Shown here: one piece after another, positions 2,956-56,504 of the stretch
Layout of the letters: each line of letters opens with the position of its first letter
Position numbering within the stretch: the first letter of the stretch is position 1
Source: Deltaproteobacteria bacterium
GTDB taxonomy: Bacteria > Myxococcota > Myxococcia > Myxococcales > JAHFDP01
Length of the DNA stretch: 64,000 nucleotides
NCBI GenBank assembly: GCA_023248955.1
Contig: JAHFDP010000003.1
Span: forward strand, 1-64,000
Direction: 5' to 3'
Notes under the pieces: model-generated
Database searches by the model: none
The model's input: only the letters and a program-made list of their open reading frames with translations
Told to the model about the DNA's origin: nothing
Translations under genes and position numbers: made by a program

Positions 2956-4059
2956 CTACTGCCCGGGGTACGCCACCACCGAGGCATCCGTGAAGTTCAC
3001 CGCGGAAAAGTCGTAGTCGCTGCTGTTGCTGGACACGGATGGCACCGGCCCGAACAACGAGACATCGCAAGCCGCCGCGCCGGATGTATCTGCCGCGTCG
3101 CTACCGTGCACCGTAGCGCCCGCCGAATCCTCCAACTTCATCATCCAGTACCCCTCCGCACTCGCGTCCGCCTTGTCGATCGACGAGCAGGTCACGCCGA
3201 TGAATTTGTTGCCGGCCGTAATCTGTCCACCGGTGGCCAGCGCATCGGTTCGTCCGATTCGCCCATTGGCGGAGGCCGCCCAGCGAGCGACGATCTGCAC
3301 GGTGGCGAGCTGATGCGTTGGGTTGGCGGGGCACAGCAGGTCCATCGTCTTCTCGAACTTGAAGCTGCCGCCGGCGCCCTTGGTACGCGCGAAGACGTAA
3401 TTGCCATTGCGCGGTGCCGCTGACTTGTCGCTATCTGGAACGAAGTTGGTGAGCGTGATTTGGATCTTTTTCTTGAGGCTGTTCACCTCGAAGATCTCAG
3501 CGATTTGGCCCTTCGCTTTTTCGTTCGTCACCACCGTGCCCAGCGCGGTGAGGTCGAGGTTGATCGTTCCGTTCCCCGCGTGTGTTTGGCCGGCAATGCG
3601 CGTGAATGTTCCGGAAGCGAATTGAACGAACGAGGTGTCCGCGGCCGTGGCTGCTTTTACGTCGAACTCCAACGTGAACTGATCACCGCTCTTCGTGAGA
3701 ACAGCTTTGTAGGTGAGGTTGTTGGTGGTGCGGACCCACGTGTGCGAGTTCGTGGTCGTCGCGTCCGGACGTTTATCGACAAAGCGATCGAGCCGCGCAA
3801 AGACCTTGAGGACGTGGTGGTTGAGCATCTTGATCGCTTCGCGCGTGCGCTGAAAAAGATGCGGATGGCAATCGTTGGCCCCGAGGGCTTGTGTGTCGAC
3901 AGTGTCGCTCGTGTCCATGTCGAGCGCCATTGTCTCGGATGTCGGTGCGGCATCGGCGTATTCATCGCCGGAGGTGGTGCTGCTTGTCGTGCCGCCGCCA
4001 CAAGCGCCGAACAGAAGTGCGCCGGTGGCCAGTGTTGCGAAAGTGGATTTCGTTTTCAT
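2956..4059 (-). CDS. Secreted lipoprotein of unknown function
   Basis: 367-aa protein with a lipoprotein signal peptide: basic MKTK start, hydrophobic stretch and lipobox LFGAC with the lipidated Cys near residue 20, followed by a Gly/Thr/Ser-rich linker. The rest is probably beta-rich and extracytoplasmic; I recognise no catalytic motif. ATG 4059 is chosen over an upstream in-frame ATG (4098) because it gives a clean signal peptide and has AGGAGA 7 nt upstream. Such lipoproteins are frequent in myxobacteria. It converges on the MATE gene. Confidence 0.8.
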   Translation of the reverse strand: MKTKSTFATLATGALLFGACGGGTTSSTTSGDEYADAAPTSETMALDMDTSDTVDTQALGANDCHPHLFQRTREAIKMLNHHVLKVFARLDRFVDKRPDATTTNSHTWVRTTNNLTYKAVLTKSGDQFTLEFDVKAATAADTSFVQFASGTFTRIAGQTHAGNGTINLDLTALGTVVTNEKAKGQIAEIFEVNSLKKKIQITLTNFVPDSDKSAAPRNGNYVFARTKGAGGSFKFEKTMDLLCPANPTHQLATVQIVARWAASANGRIGRTDALATGGQITAGNKFIGVTCSSIDKADASAEGYWMMKLEDSAGATVHGSDAADTSGAAACDVSLFGPVPSVSSNSSDYDFSAVNFTDASVVAYPGQ

Positions 4060-19893: not shown

Positions 19894-20036
19894 GGATTGT
19901 GAGGAGCACCGAGTGAATCGCGGTCGATAGTCGATTTTCGAGGTCGGGCTCGTAGTCGCGGATGTGGACGGCTATCGACGGTCGACAGTCGTCCGCGTCC
20001 GGTCGTCCGCGAGAATCGACGATCGACAAATCGATC
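19894..20036 (+). repeat. Dispersed structured repeat A, copy 1
   Basis: 143-bp sequence nearly identical to 50327-50475. It has complementary arms (19923-19940 against 20010-20027, 16 of 18 positions) and many GTCGA/TCGAC steps, so RNA or single-stranded DNA could fold into a long hairpin. Both copies follow the 3' end of a plus-strand gene (22 and 19 bp after the stop) in the same orientation. No credible protein is encoded. Confidence 0.85.
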
Positions 20037-20730
20037 TTGAACGATCGTCAATGACGCCAAATATCGCACCGGCGTTTGGGACGAAAACCGACCGGCTTGC
20101 TGGGGAAGGGGCTGAAGAGCTGTCGATTAATCGGCAGCTCTTTAGCTCGACGCGCAATCATGCGCGCGGCGGCGGGTGGGGTGAGCCCGGGGTCCGATCG
20201 AGCGCTTCCAGCGCCACCACTCGGGCCGACGGCGCTTCCAACATGCGCCGTACATGCGCCGATTCACTCGGCGCAGAGGGGCGGGCAGCGGCCCGACCTT
20301 TCAACGGGTGTGCCCAGCATGGGCATGGATAGGAGGCGAAAGTCCTCTGGGGGAGCAGGTCGTAGCGACCCCGAGCAAATCGCAAGGCGGCAAGCCGGTG
20401 AGAGCCGGTCCGACCGCGAGGTCGGCGCTGAAAGAAGCGATAGCGAAATCGCGAGTCGACGAACAGAAACTGGATATGAGGCGATGCCAACCAGGGCGAG
20501 CGGGCCTGTATCCGCGAAGCTCTCACGACCAAAGGGAAGCAGCGTAGATCCAGCGATTGCGCGAGGAAATCCATGACCCTTACCTGGGGAGATCTCGCCT
20601 GACGTCCGAAAGGGCGACGCCGAGTGGCGGAGCGAGAAGTCAGCAGAGGCCGTAGTAGCGCAGGGCACCGACCCAAGGAGGCGGCAACCGGGAGCGCGAA
20701 GGGCTGAACGGAAAGGAGAGCGAGTCGAAC

Positions 20731-22104
20731 GTGAATCTCGGAAAGGACAGGCGCCAGAAGACCGCGCAAGCGGAGCTCCCGCTCAAGCCGAGGGGTGAAG
20801 CCCTGACGCAAGAGCGAAGCGGCGAATCCAGACCGGCGAGAGACGGAAACGAGCGCTCAGGAAGCGACCACCTGATGGAAAGGGTGGTCGAGCGAGGCAA
20901 TCTCACTGCGGCGTTGAAGCGAGTGAGGCAGAACAAGGGCAGTCCGGGTGTGGACGGGATGACCGTCGACGAGTTGCCGAAGCACCTGGCCGAGAACTGG
21001 ATAAAACTTCGAGAGCAGTTGCTCGCGGGGACGTACCAGCCGGGGCCGGTGCGGAAAGTGGAGATACCGAAGAGCGGAGGCGGAACCCGACAATTGGGGA
21101 TTCCGTCGGTGCTCGACCGGCTTCTCCAGCAGAGCATCTTGCAAGTCCTGCAACCGATGTTCGACGGGAGTTTCTCGGAGCACAGCTACGGATTCCGACC
21201 TGGACGCAACGCGCACCAAGCGGTGTGCGAAGCGCAGCGGTACATCCAGGGAGGGAAACGGGTGGTGGTGGACGTGGACTTGGAGAAATTTTTCGACCGC
21301 GTCAATCACGATGTGCTGATGGGGAGACTCGCGAAGCGCATCACGGACAAGCGGATGTTGGGACTGATTCGCCGCTATCTCGAAGCCGGCATCATGGCGA
21401 ACGGGGTGGTGACGGAGCGGTACGAAGGAACGCCGCAAGGCGGACCGTTGTCACCGCTTTTGGCGAACGTGCTTCTCGATGAAGTGGATAAGGAGTTGGA
21501 GAGACGCGGGCATTTCTTCGTGCGCTATGCGGACGACCTGAATGTGTACGTCGGGTCCAAGCGGGCGGGCGAAGAGGCCATGCAGACGCTTGTGCGTTTG
21601 TACGAACGACTTCGGCTGCGAATCAACGAGGCGAAGAGCGCGGTGGCGCGGCCGCAAGACCGGAAATTTCTCGGCTACAGCTTTTGGATAGCCGCGGAAG
21701 GAAAGGTCAAACGGCGCGTCGCGCCAAAGGCCCTTGAGGTGATGAAGCAGCGGGTCCGAGAAATCACCAACCGAAACGGTGGCCAAAGCATGCGGACGGT
21801 GTTTGCTAAACTGCGCAGCTATCTGCTGGGGTGGAAGCAGTATTTCCGCCTTGCCGAGACGCCGCGTAAATTCAGCGACCTGGACAAGTGGATACGCCAT
21901 CGGCTGCGGATGGTGCAGCTCAAACAGTGGAAGCGTGGAACGACCATCTACCGCGAGATAATGCGACTCGGCGCGAACGAGTCCGTAGCTCGTCAGGTGG
22001 CCGGAAACTCGCGACGCTGGTGCAGAAATTCTCGGATGCTGCTCAACACTGCTCTGCCCAAGAACTACTACGACCGCGAAGGAGTGCCGAGACTTGCCGC
22101 ATAA
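20731..22104 (+). CDS. Group II intron reverse transcriptase/maturase
   Basis: 457-aa intron-encoded protein: RT domain with GIPSVLDRLLQQ, FRPGRNAHQAV, DVDLEKFFDRVNHDVLM, GTPQGGPLSPLLANVLLDE and catalytic YADD (266-269), then the maturase (X/GIIM) region with LRSYLLGWKQYF and IRHRLRMVQLKQWKR. There is no HNH endonuclease domain at the C-terminus, as expected of class C elements. GTG 20731 is the likely start. The frame is intact and the active site complete, so the intron may be mobile. Confidence 0.95.
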   Translation: MNLGKDRRQKTAQAELPLKPRGEALTQERSGESRPARDGNERSGSDHLMERVVERGNLTAALKRVRQNKGSPGVDGMTVDELPKHLAENWIKLREQLLAGTYQPGPVRKVEIPKSGGGTRQLGIPSVLDRLLQQSILQVLQPMFDGSFSEHSYGFRPGRNAHQAVCEAQRYIQGGKRVVVDVDLEKFFDRVNHDVLMGRLAKRITDKRMLGLIRRYLEAGIMANGVVTERYEGTPQGGPLSPLLANVLLDEVDKELERRGHFFVRYADDLNVYVGSKRAGEEAMQTLVRLYERLRLRINEAKSAVARPQDRKFLGYSFWIAAEGKVKRRVAPKALEVMKQRVREITNRNGGQSMRTVFAKLRSYLLGWKQYFRLAETPRKFSDLDKWIRHRLRMVQLKQWKRGTTIYREIMRLGANESVARQVAGNSRRWCRNSRMLLNTALPKNYYDREGVPRLAA

Positions 22105-22118
22105 AACCTCAACTTTCC

Positions 22119-22193
22119 GAACCGCCGGATGCGGACCCGCATGTCCGGTGGTGTGGCAGGGGACTGACGGGACGATTTCCCGTCAGCCCCTAT
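22119..22193 (+). ncRNA. Group II intron domains V and VI
   Basis: Domain V: a stem of ACCGCCGGA with TCCGGTGGT, a two-base bulge and a short TGCG/CGCA tip (about 22120-22152); the CGC in the lower stem fits the catalytic triad of class C introns. Domain VI: AGGGG-A-CTGACGGG paired with CCCGTCAG-CCCCT, ending at 22193. The only unpaired A I see in domain VI is on the 5' strand, so a standard branch point is not obvious. Confidence 0.8.
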
Positions 22194-22311
22194 GCCGATC
22201 AAGAGTTGTCGATGGCAATTAATCGACAACTCTTGAGTGACTTCCGATATGACGTGAAAAGTCACACATCCGGTCGCTCGAAAGATAGGAATTGTCCCGC
22301 AGCCGAACTCG

Positions 22312-50326: not shown

Positions 50327-50475
50327 GGATTGTGAGGAGCACCGAGTGAATCGCGGTCGATAGTCGATTTTCGAGGTCGGGCTCGTAGTCGCGGACGTGG
50401 ACGTGGACGGCCATCGAGGGTGGACAGTCGTCCGCGTCCGGTCGTCCGCGAGAATCGACGATCGACAAATCGATC
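50327..50475 (+). repeat. Dispersed structured repeat A, copy 2
   Basis: 149 bp nearly identical to 19894-20036, the main difference being one extra GTGGAC hexamer (two in a row instead of one) in the centre. Same orientation and same position relative to the upstream gene (after phoU). Immediately after it comes GCGGCTGGATCAC (50483-50495), a 13-base match to the 3' end of bacterial 16S rRNA. Confidence 0.85.
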
Positions 50476-50588
50476 AGGAGCGGCTGGATCACTTCTTCAC
50501 AACGATGTCGTGCGCCGGGTCGAAGCCGAGGGGCGTTCGACCCTGCGATCTGCGGTATAATTCGGCGTTGCTCCCTTTCGGAGGTCGA

Positions 50589-52397
50589 ATGCCACGAGCT
50601 GTCGTGCTGATCTCCGTCGTCCTGTTCGCTGGCTGCCGATCGTCCGATCTCAAACCAGTCAAATCCTGCATCCGCACGACGCTCGCGGAGATCGACTTCG
50701 GCGACACGCCGATCGGAACGACCGCCACCCACACTTTCGTCATCTCGGCCTGCGATCGCCAAGGGCTTAGGATTAGCAATATGCTCGTCGCCGGTGCGAA
50801 CGCGGCTCTCTTCGCCGTCCTCGGAGAGCGTAGCTTCTCCTTGGACGCCAGCGACGATCGAAAACGAGAGGTCAGCTACACGCCCAACGAGCTCGGCAGC
50901 CACGCGGCAACTCTGGAGATCGACAGCGACGCCGACAACAGCCCTACCTTGATTTTGGTGCTCTCCGGGCGCGGCGTCGATCCCTGTGCCGCGATCGTGT
51001 GCAACAAGCCTCCCGCGCCGGTTTGCGACGGAACAGCCCTCGTCAGCAGCGACCCCACCGGAACCTGCGGCGCCGGACAATGCACCTACACGACGCGCAG
51101 CGCCGCTTGCCCCACGGCAGGCCCCAACGCCACAGCCCATTGCGTCGGTATTGCATGCGGATTCGTTTGTAATACGGGCTTCGTCGACTGCGCGCACGAC
51201 ATCGCGCAGGGATGCGTCGACACGAGCAGCGACATCAACAACTGTGGCAAATGCGGAACGATCTGCGACCCCGGCGCCGTTTGTGCGTTGGGCAAATGCG
51301 AGGCGAGCAAGCAGTCCGCCATCACCGTTGGCGAAGGGCACGCTTGCGCGCTGACCACGACCGGCGGCGTCAAGTGCTGGGGCAACAACGACGCTGGCGA
51401 GCTGGGCGACAACACCTTCACACGGAGGCTGGCGCCGGTGGACGTCGTGGGACTCTCCTCCGGCGTGATTGCAGTATCAGCGGGAACGGATTTCACCTGC
51501 GCGCTCACCGAGGCTGGTGCCATCAAATGCTGGGGCTCCAACGACAGCGCCAGACTGGGAATCGGGATCTCGGGCGGATCCGCAAATCCAGATAGTTACG
51601 CCACGCCGATGGACGTGGTCGGTCTCACGACGCCAGCGATCGCTCTCTCCGCGGGAGCCGACCATTCTTGCGCGGTCCTGAGCACAGGCGGCGCTGTGTG
51701 CTGGGGTCAACCCACGAGCGGAGACCTGGGCGACGGGAGCGAATCGAATGGCGTGCACACGACACCCACGGATGTCGTGGGTCTCTTGCCCGGCGCCGTG
51801 GCCATTGCCGCGGGTCTCGTCCACAGCTGCGCGCTTGTTCGCGGCGGAGGCGTGCAGTGCTGGGGCAGCGGAAACACCGGCGTCCTCGGAACCGGTCCGG
51901 CGGGCGGCAGCCGCTATCCAGCCAATGTGATCGGGCTCTCCTCGGGCGTCCGCGCGCTGAGCGCTGGGTCGGAGCACAATTGCGCGATTACCAAAACGGC
52001 TGGCGTCCAGTGCTGGGGCTTCAACATCCACGGCCAGATCGGCGACGGCACGACCACCGACCGCCGCCTGCCCACCGATGTCGCCGGTCTCACGACGGGA
52101 ATGAAAGCCATCGCTGGAGGACGTCAGCACAGCTGCGCGGTCAGCAGCGTGGGCGGCGTCAAATGCTGGGGCAGTAACTACGCGGGCAATCTTGGCGACA
52201 ACACCACGATCGACGCCACGACGTTCGTGGACGTCGTCGGGCTCAGCGCGGGCGTCGCGGCCATCGCCGCCGGAGGAAGAACGACTTGCGCTCTGATGAC
52301 GGACGGCACCATCAAATGCTGGGGCCGCAACAACTCGGGCGAGGTCGGCGACAACAGCGGAATCGATCGCGCTACGCCCGTGGACGTGAAGTTCTAG
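50589..52397 (+). CDS. RCC1-repeat lipoprotein
   Basis: 602 aa. Lipobox LFAGC near residue 17; a choice-of-anchor/ASH-like beta domain (residues 30-130, EIDFGDTPIGTTATHTFVIS); a Cys-rich part (CVDTSSDINNCGKCGTIC) common in myxobacterial surface proteins; then seven RCC1 repeats of the form GxxHxCAL...GGxxCWGxNxxGxLGDN, i.e. a complete seven-bladed propeller. Probably a surface adhesin or binding protein; ligand unknown. ATG 50589 follows GGAGG. Confidence 0.88.
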   Translation: MPRAVVLISVVLFAGCRSSDLKPVKSCIRTTLAEIDFGDTPIGTTATHTFVISACDRQGLRISNMLVAGANAALFAVLGERSFSLDASDDRKREVSYTPNELGSHAATLEIDSDADNSPTLILVLSGRGVDPCAAIVCNKPPAPVCDGTALVSSDPTGTCGAGQCTYTTRSAACPTAGPNATAHCVGIACGFVCNTGFVDCAHDIAQGCVDTSSDINNCGKCGTICDPGAVCALGKCEASKQSAITVGEGHACALTTTGGVKCWGNNDAGELGDNTFTRRLAPVDVVGLSSGVIAVSAGTDFTCALTEAGAIKCWGSNDSARLGIGISGGSANPDSYATPMDVVGLTTPAIALSAGADHSCAVLSTGGAVCWGQPTSGDLGDGSESNGVHTTPTDVVGLLPGAVAIAAGLVHSCALVRGGGVQCWGSGNTGVLGTGPAGGSRYPANVIGLSSGVRALSAGSEHNCAITKTAGVQCWGFNIHGQIGDGTTTDRRLPTDVAGLTTGMKAIAGGRQHSCAVSSVGGVKCWGSNYAGNLGDNTTIDATTFVDVVGLSAGVAAIAAGGRTTCALMTDGTIKCWGRNNSGEVGDNSGIDRATPVDVKF

Positions 52398-55101: not shown

Positions 55102-55331
55102 ACTCAAGAGTTGTCGATTAATTGCCATTGACAACTCTTGCCATTGAAGGGTCGGCCGCCCGCCCCTCTGCGCCGAGTGAATCGGCGCATGTACGGCGCT
55201 CGATGGAAGCGCCGTCGGCCCGAGTCGTGGCGCTGGAAGCGCTCGATCGGACCCCGGGCTCACCCCACCCGCCGCCGCGCTCAAGATTGCGCGTCGGACT
55301 GAAGAGCTGCCGATTAATCGACAGCTCTTCA
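55102..55331 (+). repeat. Dispersed palindromic repeat B, copy 2 (uninterrupted)
   Basis: 230 bp with a hairpin at each end (AAGAGTTGTCGATTAATTGC with ACAACTCTT; GAAGAGCTGCCGATTAATCG with ACAGCTCTTC). The inner ~150 bp are GC-rich and shared with the intron-split copy at 20113-22238 (opposite orientation). One end abuts the stop codon of the metallophosphoesterase gene. No ORF of note. Confidence 0.85.
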
Positions 55332-56504
55332 CGCCGCGGGGATTGGTTCCGAAGAGGACACCGGCTCTGCGGCGGGCACCAGCACCAACTCAGTGACCTC
55401 GGGCCGGGCGCCCAAGCGCATCGGCATCACCAGGCCCGCGCCGCGGCTGACGTAGAGGTAGCTCTCACCGATTTGATAGAGGCCAGCGACGTAACGGGTG
55501 ATGAGGCGCGCCAGCGAGAGCGCGCGGTGCAACCAGAAAATGCCGAACTGCCCGCCGTGCGTGTGGCCAGAGAGTGTCAGCGCCACGCCGGCGCGCGCGG
55601 CGGCCGGGAAGAAATTCGGGTTGTGCGCGAGGAGAACGGCGGGCACGCCGTCGGGACGGCCCTCTAGCGCGGCGCGTAAATCTTGGCCACCGAAAGTGAT
55701 GTCGTCGATGCCGCAGAGCCAAATTTTCTCGCCGCCCCGTTCTAACGCCACGCCCTGGTTGACGAGGAGCCGCACGCCCGCCGCGCGTAAATCCTCTGCC
55801 ACCCGTCCTGCGCCGGCGTAGTGATCATGGTTGCCGAGGCAGGCGAAGACGCCGAGCGGCGCGGGAATGGACGCCAATATTTCTCCGGCGCGCCGCGCGT
55901 GCTGCGCATCTCGATCGACGATGTCGCCGGTCACCACCACCGCATCGCCGTGGAGCCGCGCCGCGTGCCGCGCGATTCGTCGCAACCGCGCTTCGGAGAC
56001 AAATCCGCCGAGGTGAAGGTCGGAAAGCTGCACCAGCCGAAACCCGGAGAACACGCTTGGGAGTCCCTCGATCGGCACCTCCACGCGGGACGGTTGCATC
56101 CAGCGCTGGCCGATGAGCGCGCCGTAAAGAATGAGCGCAAAGGGGACGAGCGCCAGCCACCACGGCAGCGGGAGGCCGGCCACTTGCGCCAGCCGAAACA
56201 AGAGTCCCAGCGGCAGGTAGAGCAGCGAACCGATGCCGGCGACGGAAAAAGGAAGCAGCGCCAGTTCGCCCCACGGACCGCGAAGCATGCGCCGCTTGGC
56301 AACCACGAAGACGAGCGGAAGGTTGGCGGCGACGAAGAGAAACGGCAGGAGGTAGGCGGCCTGATCGAGGCCGACGGAGAAAAAGGCGCGCGTCAGATCG
56401 TGCAGTGCGAAGGCTTGGGGCGGCAACGCAATCGTGGTGAGCAATCCGACTAACCGGAGCCGGCGGCGAACGGATCCGAACGCTTGGCGTTGTCTCTTTG
56501 ACAT
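55329..56504 (-). CDS. Membrane-anchored metallophosphoesterase (YkuE/YaeI-like)
   Basis: 391 aa: three or four N-terminal hydrophobic segments (residues 15-125), then a calcineurin-like phosphoesterase with the full metal-site set SDLHLGG, TGDIVDRD, CLGNHDHY, LLAHNPNF and SGHTHGGQ. Possibly acts on UDP-diacylglucosamine or another lipid pyrophosphate, as some relatives do; not provable here. The TGA stop forms the first bases of repeat B. Confidence 0.88.
   Translation of the reverse strand: MSKRQRQAFGSVRRRLRLVGLLTTIALPPQAFALHDLTRAFFSVGLDQAAYLLPFLFVAANLPLVFVVAKRRMLRGPWGELALLPFSVAGIGSLLYLPLGLLFRLAQVAGLPLPWWLALVPFALILYGALIGQRWMQPSRVEVPIEGLPSVFSGFRLVQLSDLHLGGFVSEARLRRIARHAARLHGDAVVVTGDIVDRDAQHARRAGEILASIPAPLGVFACLGNHDHYAGAGRVAEDLRAAGVRLLVNQGVALERGGEKIWLCGIDDITFGGQDLRAALEGRPDGVPAVLLAHNPNFFPAAARAGVALTLSGHTHGGQFGIFWLHRALSLARLITRYVAGLYQIGESYLYVSRGAGLVMPMRLGARPEVTELVLVPAAEPVSSSEPIPAA

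Follow-up and report, generated by a model that had tools for sequence, protein, structure and literature searches.

A group IIC intron of 1892 bp interrupts one copy of a dispersed, hairpin-rich repeat in the window, that is, the whole stretch of 64,000 nucleotides analysed here, and very probably a mobile intron was retro-inserted there a single time, with recognition of a hairpin of the repeat (H4), of an EBS1-IBS1 pairing and of an IBS3 contact. This reading is based on the boundaries of the intron, its intact reverse transcriptase (RT), the hairpin geometry, the covariation between EBS1 and IBS1, the presence of a single intron and about 19 empty copies of the repeat among the matches listed. 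The features concerned are the following.

20113-20307, plus strand: left part of the repeat (5' exon), H1-H4 with the optional module (copy alignment)
20113-20144, plus strand: H1, left terminal hairpin (TGAAGAGC...) (copy alignment, folding)
20185-20253, plus strand: optional module of about 69 bp, missing from short copies (copy alignment)
20255-20275, plus strand: H3, central hairpin TGCGCCGATTCACTCGGCGCA (covariation)
20276-20302, plus strand: H4, the hairpin that precedes the insertion point, its loop centred 19 nt upstream (covariation, hairpin-spacing test, folding)
20304-20307, plus strand: IBS1 (ACGG) (exon-intron covariation)
20308-22199, plus strand: group IIC intron, 1892 bp, 5' GTGTGCCCAGCATG..., 3' ...CCCCTATGCCGAT (Rfam, conserved ends of relatives, gapless joined flanks)
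20410-20577, plus strand: intron domain I core, RF02001 group-II-D1D4-3, 112.7 bits (Rfam search)
20506-20509, plus strand: EBS1 (CUGU), pairing with IBS1 ACGG through one G-U wobble (covariation over 52 distinct sites)
20731-22104, plus strand: intron-encoded RT/maturase, 457 aa, YADD at 21526-21537, start codon uncertain (ORF, profile matches)
22120-22199, plus strand: domains V and VI, with the A at 22192 as likely branch point (full-length RF00029 match; branch point by analogy)
22200-22238, plus strand: right part of the repeat (3' exon), H5 terminal hairpin, first base C at the IBS3 position (empty-site alignment, folding)
55102-55331, minus strand: uninterrupted repeat copy, first triplet TGA being the stop codon of a metallophosphoesterase-like ORF (55329-56504)

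Two copies of the repeat are present in the window, the intact one at 55102-55331 and a split one at 20113-22238. That the flanks of the intron together match the intact element had been proposed in the first-pass annotation, and the alignment bears this out: 20113-20307 and 22200-22238 correspond to the reverse complement of 55102-55331, with 93% identity over 182 nt and 97% over 39 nt, respectively. This gives a cleanly bounded pair of an empty and a filled site for a repeat-borne IIC intron. A second dispersed repeat (GGATTGTGAGGAGCACCGAGTGAATCGCGGTCGATAGTCG...) was detected at 19894-20043, directly upstream of the split element, and at 50327-50482, its copies being 99% alike over 77 nt.

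The intron begins with GTGTGCCC at 20308, where the annotation had already placed it, and its 5' end agrees with those of its relatives, whose conserved ends are GTGYGCCC...CCGAT. The 3' end had been set at CCCCTAT (22193), but this position was rejected, as it leaves six unexplained bases (GCCGAT) found in no intact copy of the repeat and puts the branch-point A one base from the end. The end was assigned to 22199 because the model of domains V and VI (RF00029), the CCCCTAT[G/C]CCGAT motif of the relatives and the intact repeat copies all place it at GCCGAT. Thus, of the split proposed at 20307/22194, the left side was retained and the right side was moved to 22200 by the gapless empty-site alignment. 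With the end at 22199, the joined flanks read CTTTCAACGG^CAAGAGTTG, align without gaps to copies L005 and L006 and score higher against all six repeat copies tested. Almost all of the first two dozen relatives read have the motif at their 3' end; among those that differ are ACC and GGC variants and, in L058, GCCGTT, and the foot of domain VI is paired as GGC..GCC or GGG..CCC in the relatives. In L119 a second intron begins directly after the CCGAT of the first, forming a tandem pair of IIC introns at position 3955 of that locus. A bulged A at 22192, lying 7 nt ahead of the final base, is the likely branch point by analogy with the structure of the Eubacterium rectale IIC intron, in which the branch A is A632 and the last base U638 (PMC10190682).

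Assignment to class C was confirmed against the covariance models, with 112.7 bits for RF02001 and a full-length match of RF00029 to 22120-22199, the latter scoring 35.1 bits, slightly short of the gathering threshold of 40. The RT, noted early on as an intact YADD enzyme, is indeed encoded by an intact ORF that matched TIGR04416 (E=3e-124) and contains RVT_1 and GIIM domains, while domain searches of 20731-22104 found no endonuclease domain. Its best solved relatives are the GsI-IIC RT (5e-141) and 7uim/7uin (1e-98), the maturase of the E. rectale intron and a IIC enzyme like the GsI-IIC RT; LtrA was far behind (4e-39), and relatives on plasmids reached about 60% identity at best. Taken together, the ribozyme domains, the ends, the RT, the pairing and the hairpin place the predicted intron in group IIC (class C).

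Target recognition was analysed in 54 distinct sites, that of the window included, from which both intron ends could be extracted. In 53 of the 54, the intron is preceded by a stem of 8 or more pairs whose loop lies 16-24 nt upstream, compared to 402 of 1016 control positions, a high rate owing to the ease with which GC-rich DNA folds; the mean folding energies were -22.7 and -12.7 kcal/mol, respectively. At the site in the window, the centre of the H4 loop lies 19 nt upstream of the intron, so that stem and spacing agree with those of 52 other sites. The stem reported 12 bp before the intron was also found, as the 5-bp core of the hairpin (CGGGC AGCG GCCCG) ends 12 nt upstream. Folded as DNA, H4 has a 7-bp stem with one mismatch (z -1.4); it has no T-run and was not called by the terminator scan. 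H4 is therefore a weak target and a weak example of the IIC class, not a canonical terminator.

The four column pairs with the highest mutual information over 52 distinct sites joined exon positions -2, -1, -4 and -3 with intron positions 200, 199, 202 and 201, respectively, which means that exon -1 to -4 and intron 199-202 covary in antiparallel, adjacent order. Because of this covariation, intron 199-202 was identified as an EBS1 of 4 bp, the length also described in the published IIC structure (PMC10190682). The IBS1 of the window is ACGG, whereas that of most relatives is T-rich. The first base of the 3' exon was T or C in 46 of 49 sites, a preference consistent with a putative single IBS3 contact. 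These data provide a worked EBS1-IBS1 map for the clade that includes a target with a weak stem and lacking a T-run.

The choice of site by a hairpin is normal for this class, and it is established that IIC introns insert behind terminators and attC sites (PMC4424553; PMC8919778). The intron resembles the group IIC introns O.i.I1, B.h.I1, GsI-IIC and that of E. rectale in its RNA 5' and 3' ends, its RT without an endonuclease domain, its 4-nt EBS1, its 3' end in AU and its insertion after a hairpin (PMC4424553; PMC10190682; PMC8919778), but differs in that the hairpin is weak, without T-run and part of a dispersed repeat, and in that its IBS1 is not T-rich. Group IIC-attC introns (S.ma.I2 type) likewise target an imperfect inverted repeat that belongs to another mobile system (PMC4424553), but no integron context was recognised here and the five-hairpin repeat is unlike attC in appearance. 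Group II introns are also associated with palindromic repeats in Pseudomonas putida KT2440, where 2 of the 9 copies tabulated lie with REP palindromes (PMC1525189), though the repeat family is another one and in our case one intron occupies one site. Precedents exist both for terminators as IIC insertion sites and for REP palindromes as hosts of group II introns.

The boundaries, the RT and the geometry of H4 support the original view that a class C intron has been inserted behind one of the hairpins of a dispersed repeat. It had further been expected that the repeat has many copies and serves as a landing platform for such introns. The first expectation was correct, as about 20 full-length copies were found in the genome among the matches listed; the second was not supported, as one of these about 20 copies is occupied and none was found occupied in two other genomes. 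A survey of which copies carry introns, as had been advised, returned the split element as the only one among the about 20 listed, and thus no recurrence at the same position. The element model gave at least 20 uninterrupted matches. Two of these, terminal on contigs C51 and C29, have an unusual stretch in common and probably represent the same copy, leaving at least about 19 uninterrupted copies among the matches listed. Both the intron and its RT occur once in this genome, no further copy of either being found, and no RT match at E<=1e-60 was obtained in G043 and G057, the two other genomes that bear the repeat. The nearest intron (L040, 80% RT identity) is located behind an unrelated terminator, and its site was rejected as a repeat since that terminator occurs only once in its genome. 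Ordinary terminators precede almost all the other 53 sites. In other genomes of the order the introns of the clade are scattered (12 of 144), and the two with both ends readable (L137 and L141) are both behind unrelated terminators. Because there is one intron against about 19 empty copies listed, no close relative in G043 or G057, and an unrelated terminator at L040, the repeat is regarded as a permissive target that was hit once, and a dedicated platform is without support.

A true platform would imply an intron lineage specialised, through its EBS1 CUGU, on H4 and IBS1 and spreading through the copies of the repeat. Such an EBS1 is unusual among the relatives and fits the ACGG or ATGG of the repeat, and a fitting IBS1 was read by eye in at least six uninterrupted copies (L001, L002, L004, L006, L007 and L019), whose stem matches as well. 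However, EBS1 fits the resident site throughout the family, so a match of CUGU is expected, and the nearest relative has a different EBS1; with the single intron among so many uninterrupted copies and the lack of a close RT relative in the two other repeat-bearing genomes, this alternative is quite improbable. The same six sites, being near-identical and natural, would allow the minimal DNA hairpin for IIC introns to be tested.

It was also considered that the intron had entered a repeat copy elsewhere, and that this copy was later moved or converted to its present place. The patchy distribution and the many copies make the repeat itself look mobile, but no second intron-bearing copy was found and nothing indicates that the repeat can move while carrying an insert of 1.9 kb, so this route has little chance of being the right one. 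An assembly artefact that joined an intron contig to the repeat is hardly credible: the assembly is fragmented and metagenome-style, the 39-bp H5 common to the copies could in principle mislead the assembler, and another copy at contig ends (C51/C29) shows that the assembler breaks at such repeats, but at the junction IBS1, IBS3 and the stem spacing all fall where they are expected, the left join runs through 195 bp of repeat and the contig is 104 kb long.

In the preferred scenario of a single retro-insertion, the RNP would have recognised H4 as a DNA stem-loop, EBS1 (CUGU) would have paired with IBS1 (ACGG), with C at the IBS3 position, and reverse splicing would have taken place between 20307 and 22200. 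As in the mechanism published for IIC introns, the intron may have reverse-spliced into the structured DNA, with cDNA synthesis then primed at a replication fork, and by the same analogy it may be active at present. The repeat would have been hit as a supplier of a suitable stem and IBS1.

The repeat family is less ordinary than the intron and may deserve a study of its own. Its copies, of 160-230 bp, are arranged as H1, H2, GGGTGGGGTGA, the optional module of about 69 bp, H3, H4 and H5. RNAalifold supported 43 pairs, 15 of them with changes on both sides, most strongly in H5, whose subtypes differ in sequence but keep the pairing; H1 was misaligned between subtypes in the input and rests on its own palindromes. 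Two subtypes with different terminal hairpins around the same core are present in this genome, and a third in G043. Within the phylum, the repeat was found in 3 of 195 genomes (E<=1e-4). Neither copy of the window had a match in Rfam at the gathering score, and the psRNA14 and snoRNA matches at 20107-20174 were far below threshold and were treated as chance. Nothing was found in the literature on this repeat in Anaeromyxobacter.

In 21 of the 34 copies read, among them L003, L005, L006 and many of G043, the first TGA, read in its own frame, is the exact end of an ORF of 100 codons or more, compared to 21% of the TGA triplets in the flanks; L012, which starts with GGA and was placed in the third group, is also among the 34. 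This coincidence is an enrichment, not a proof, given that chance ORFs are common in GC-rich DNA and that the copies are related. The ORF at 55329-56504 is a clear case.

REP, BIME and REPIN elements are likewise dispersed hairpin repeats, some of them near stop codons (PMC12306157, PMC3733652), but the present repeat is longer, with five hairpins, a modular interior and no match that reaches the gathering score in Rfam. REP/REPIN elements are associated with a RAYT/Y1 transposase; a search of this genome with PF01797 gave no match, and a resident Y1 transposase was accordingly rejected as the mover of the repeat, while PF01797 matches are present in G043 and G057. Tentatively, the repeat could represent an undescribed modular and probably mobile family of five hairpins that settles exactly at stop codons, swaps terminal hairpins around a conserved core and doubles as a IIC target, a combination that we consider possible rather than probable.

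The inner module recurs in another repeat family (L026 and L027), and at the start of a contig (G000:C82:1-208) it appears in three spaced copies 69 bp apart. By eye, the H5 palindrome at the right end of L003 appears to continue for several bases in the adjoining target DNA (CTTCAAGTCAAGAG...CTCTTGACTTGAA). Elsewhere in the window, direct repeats with a spacing of 153 bp were observed at 51342-52387 within an ORF region, possibly encoding a repeat protein.
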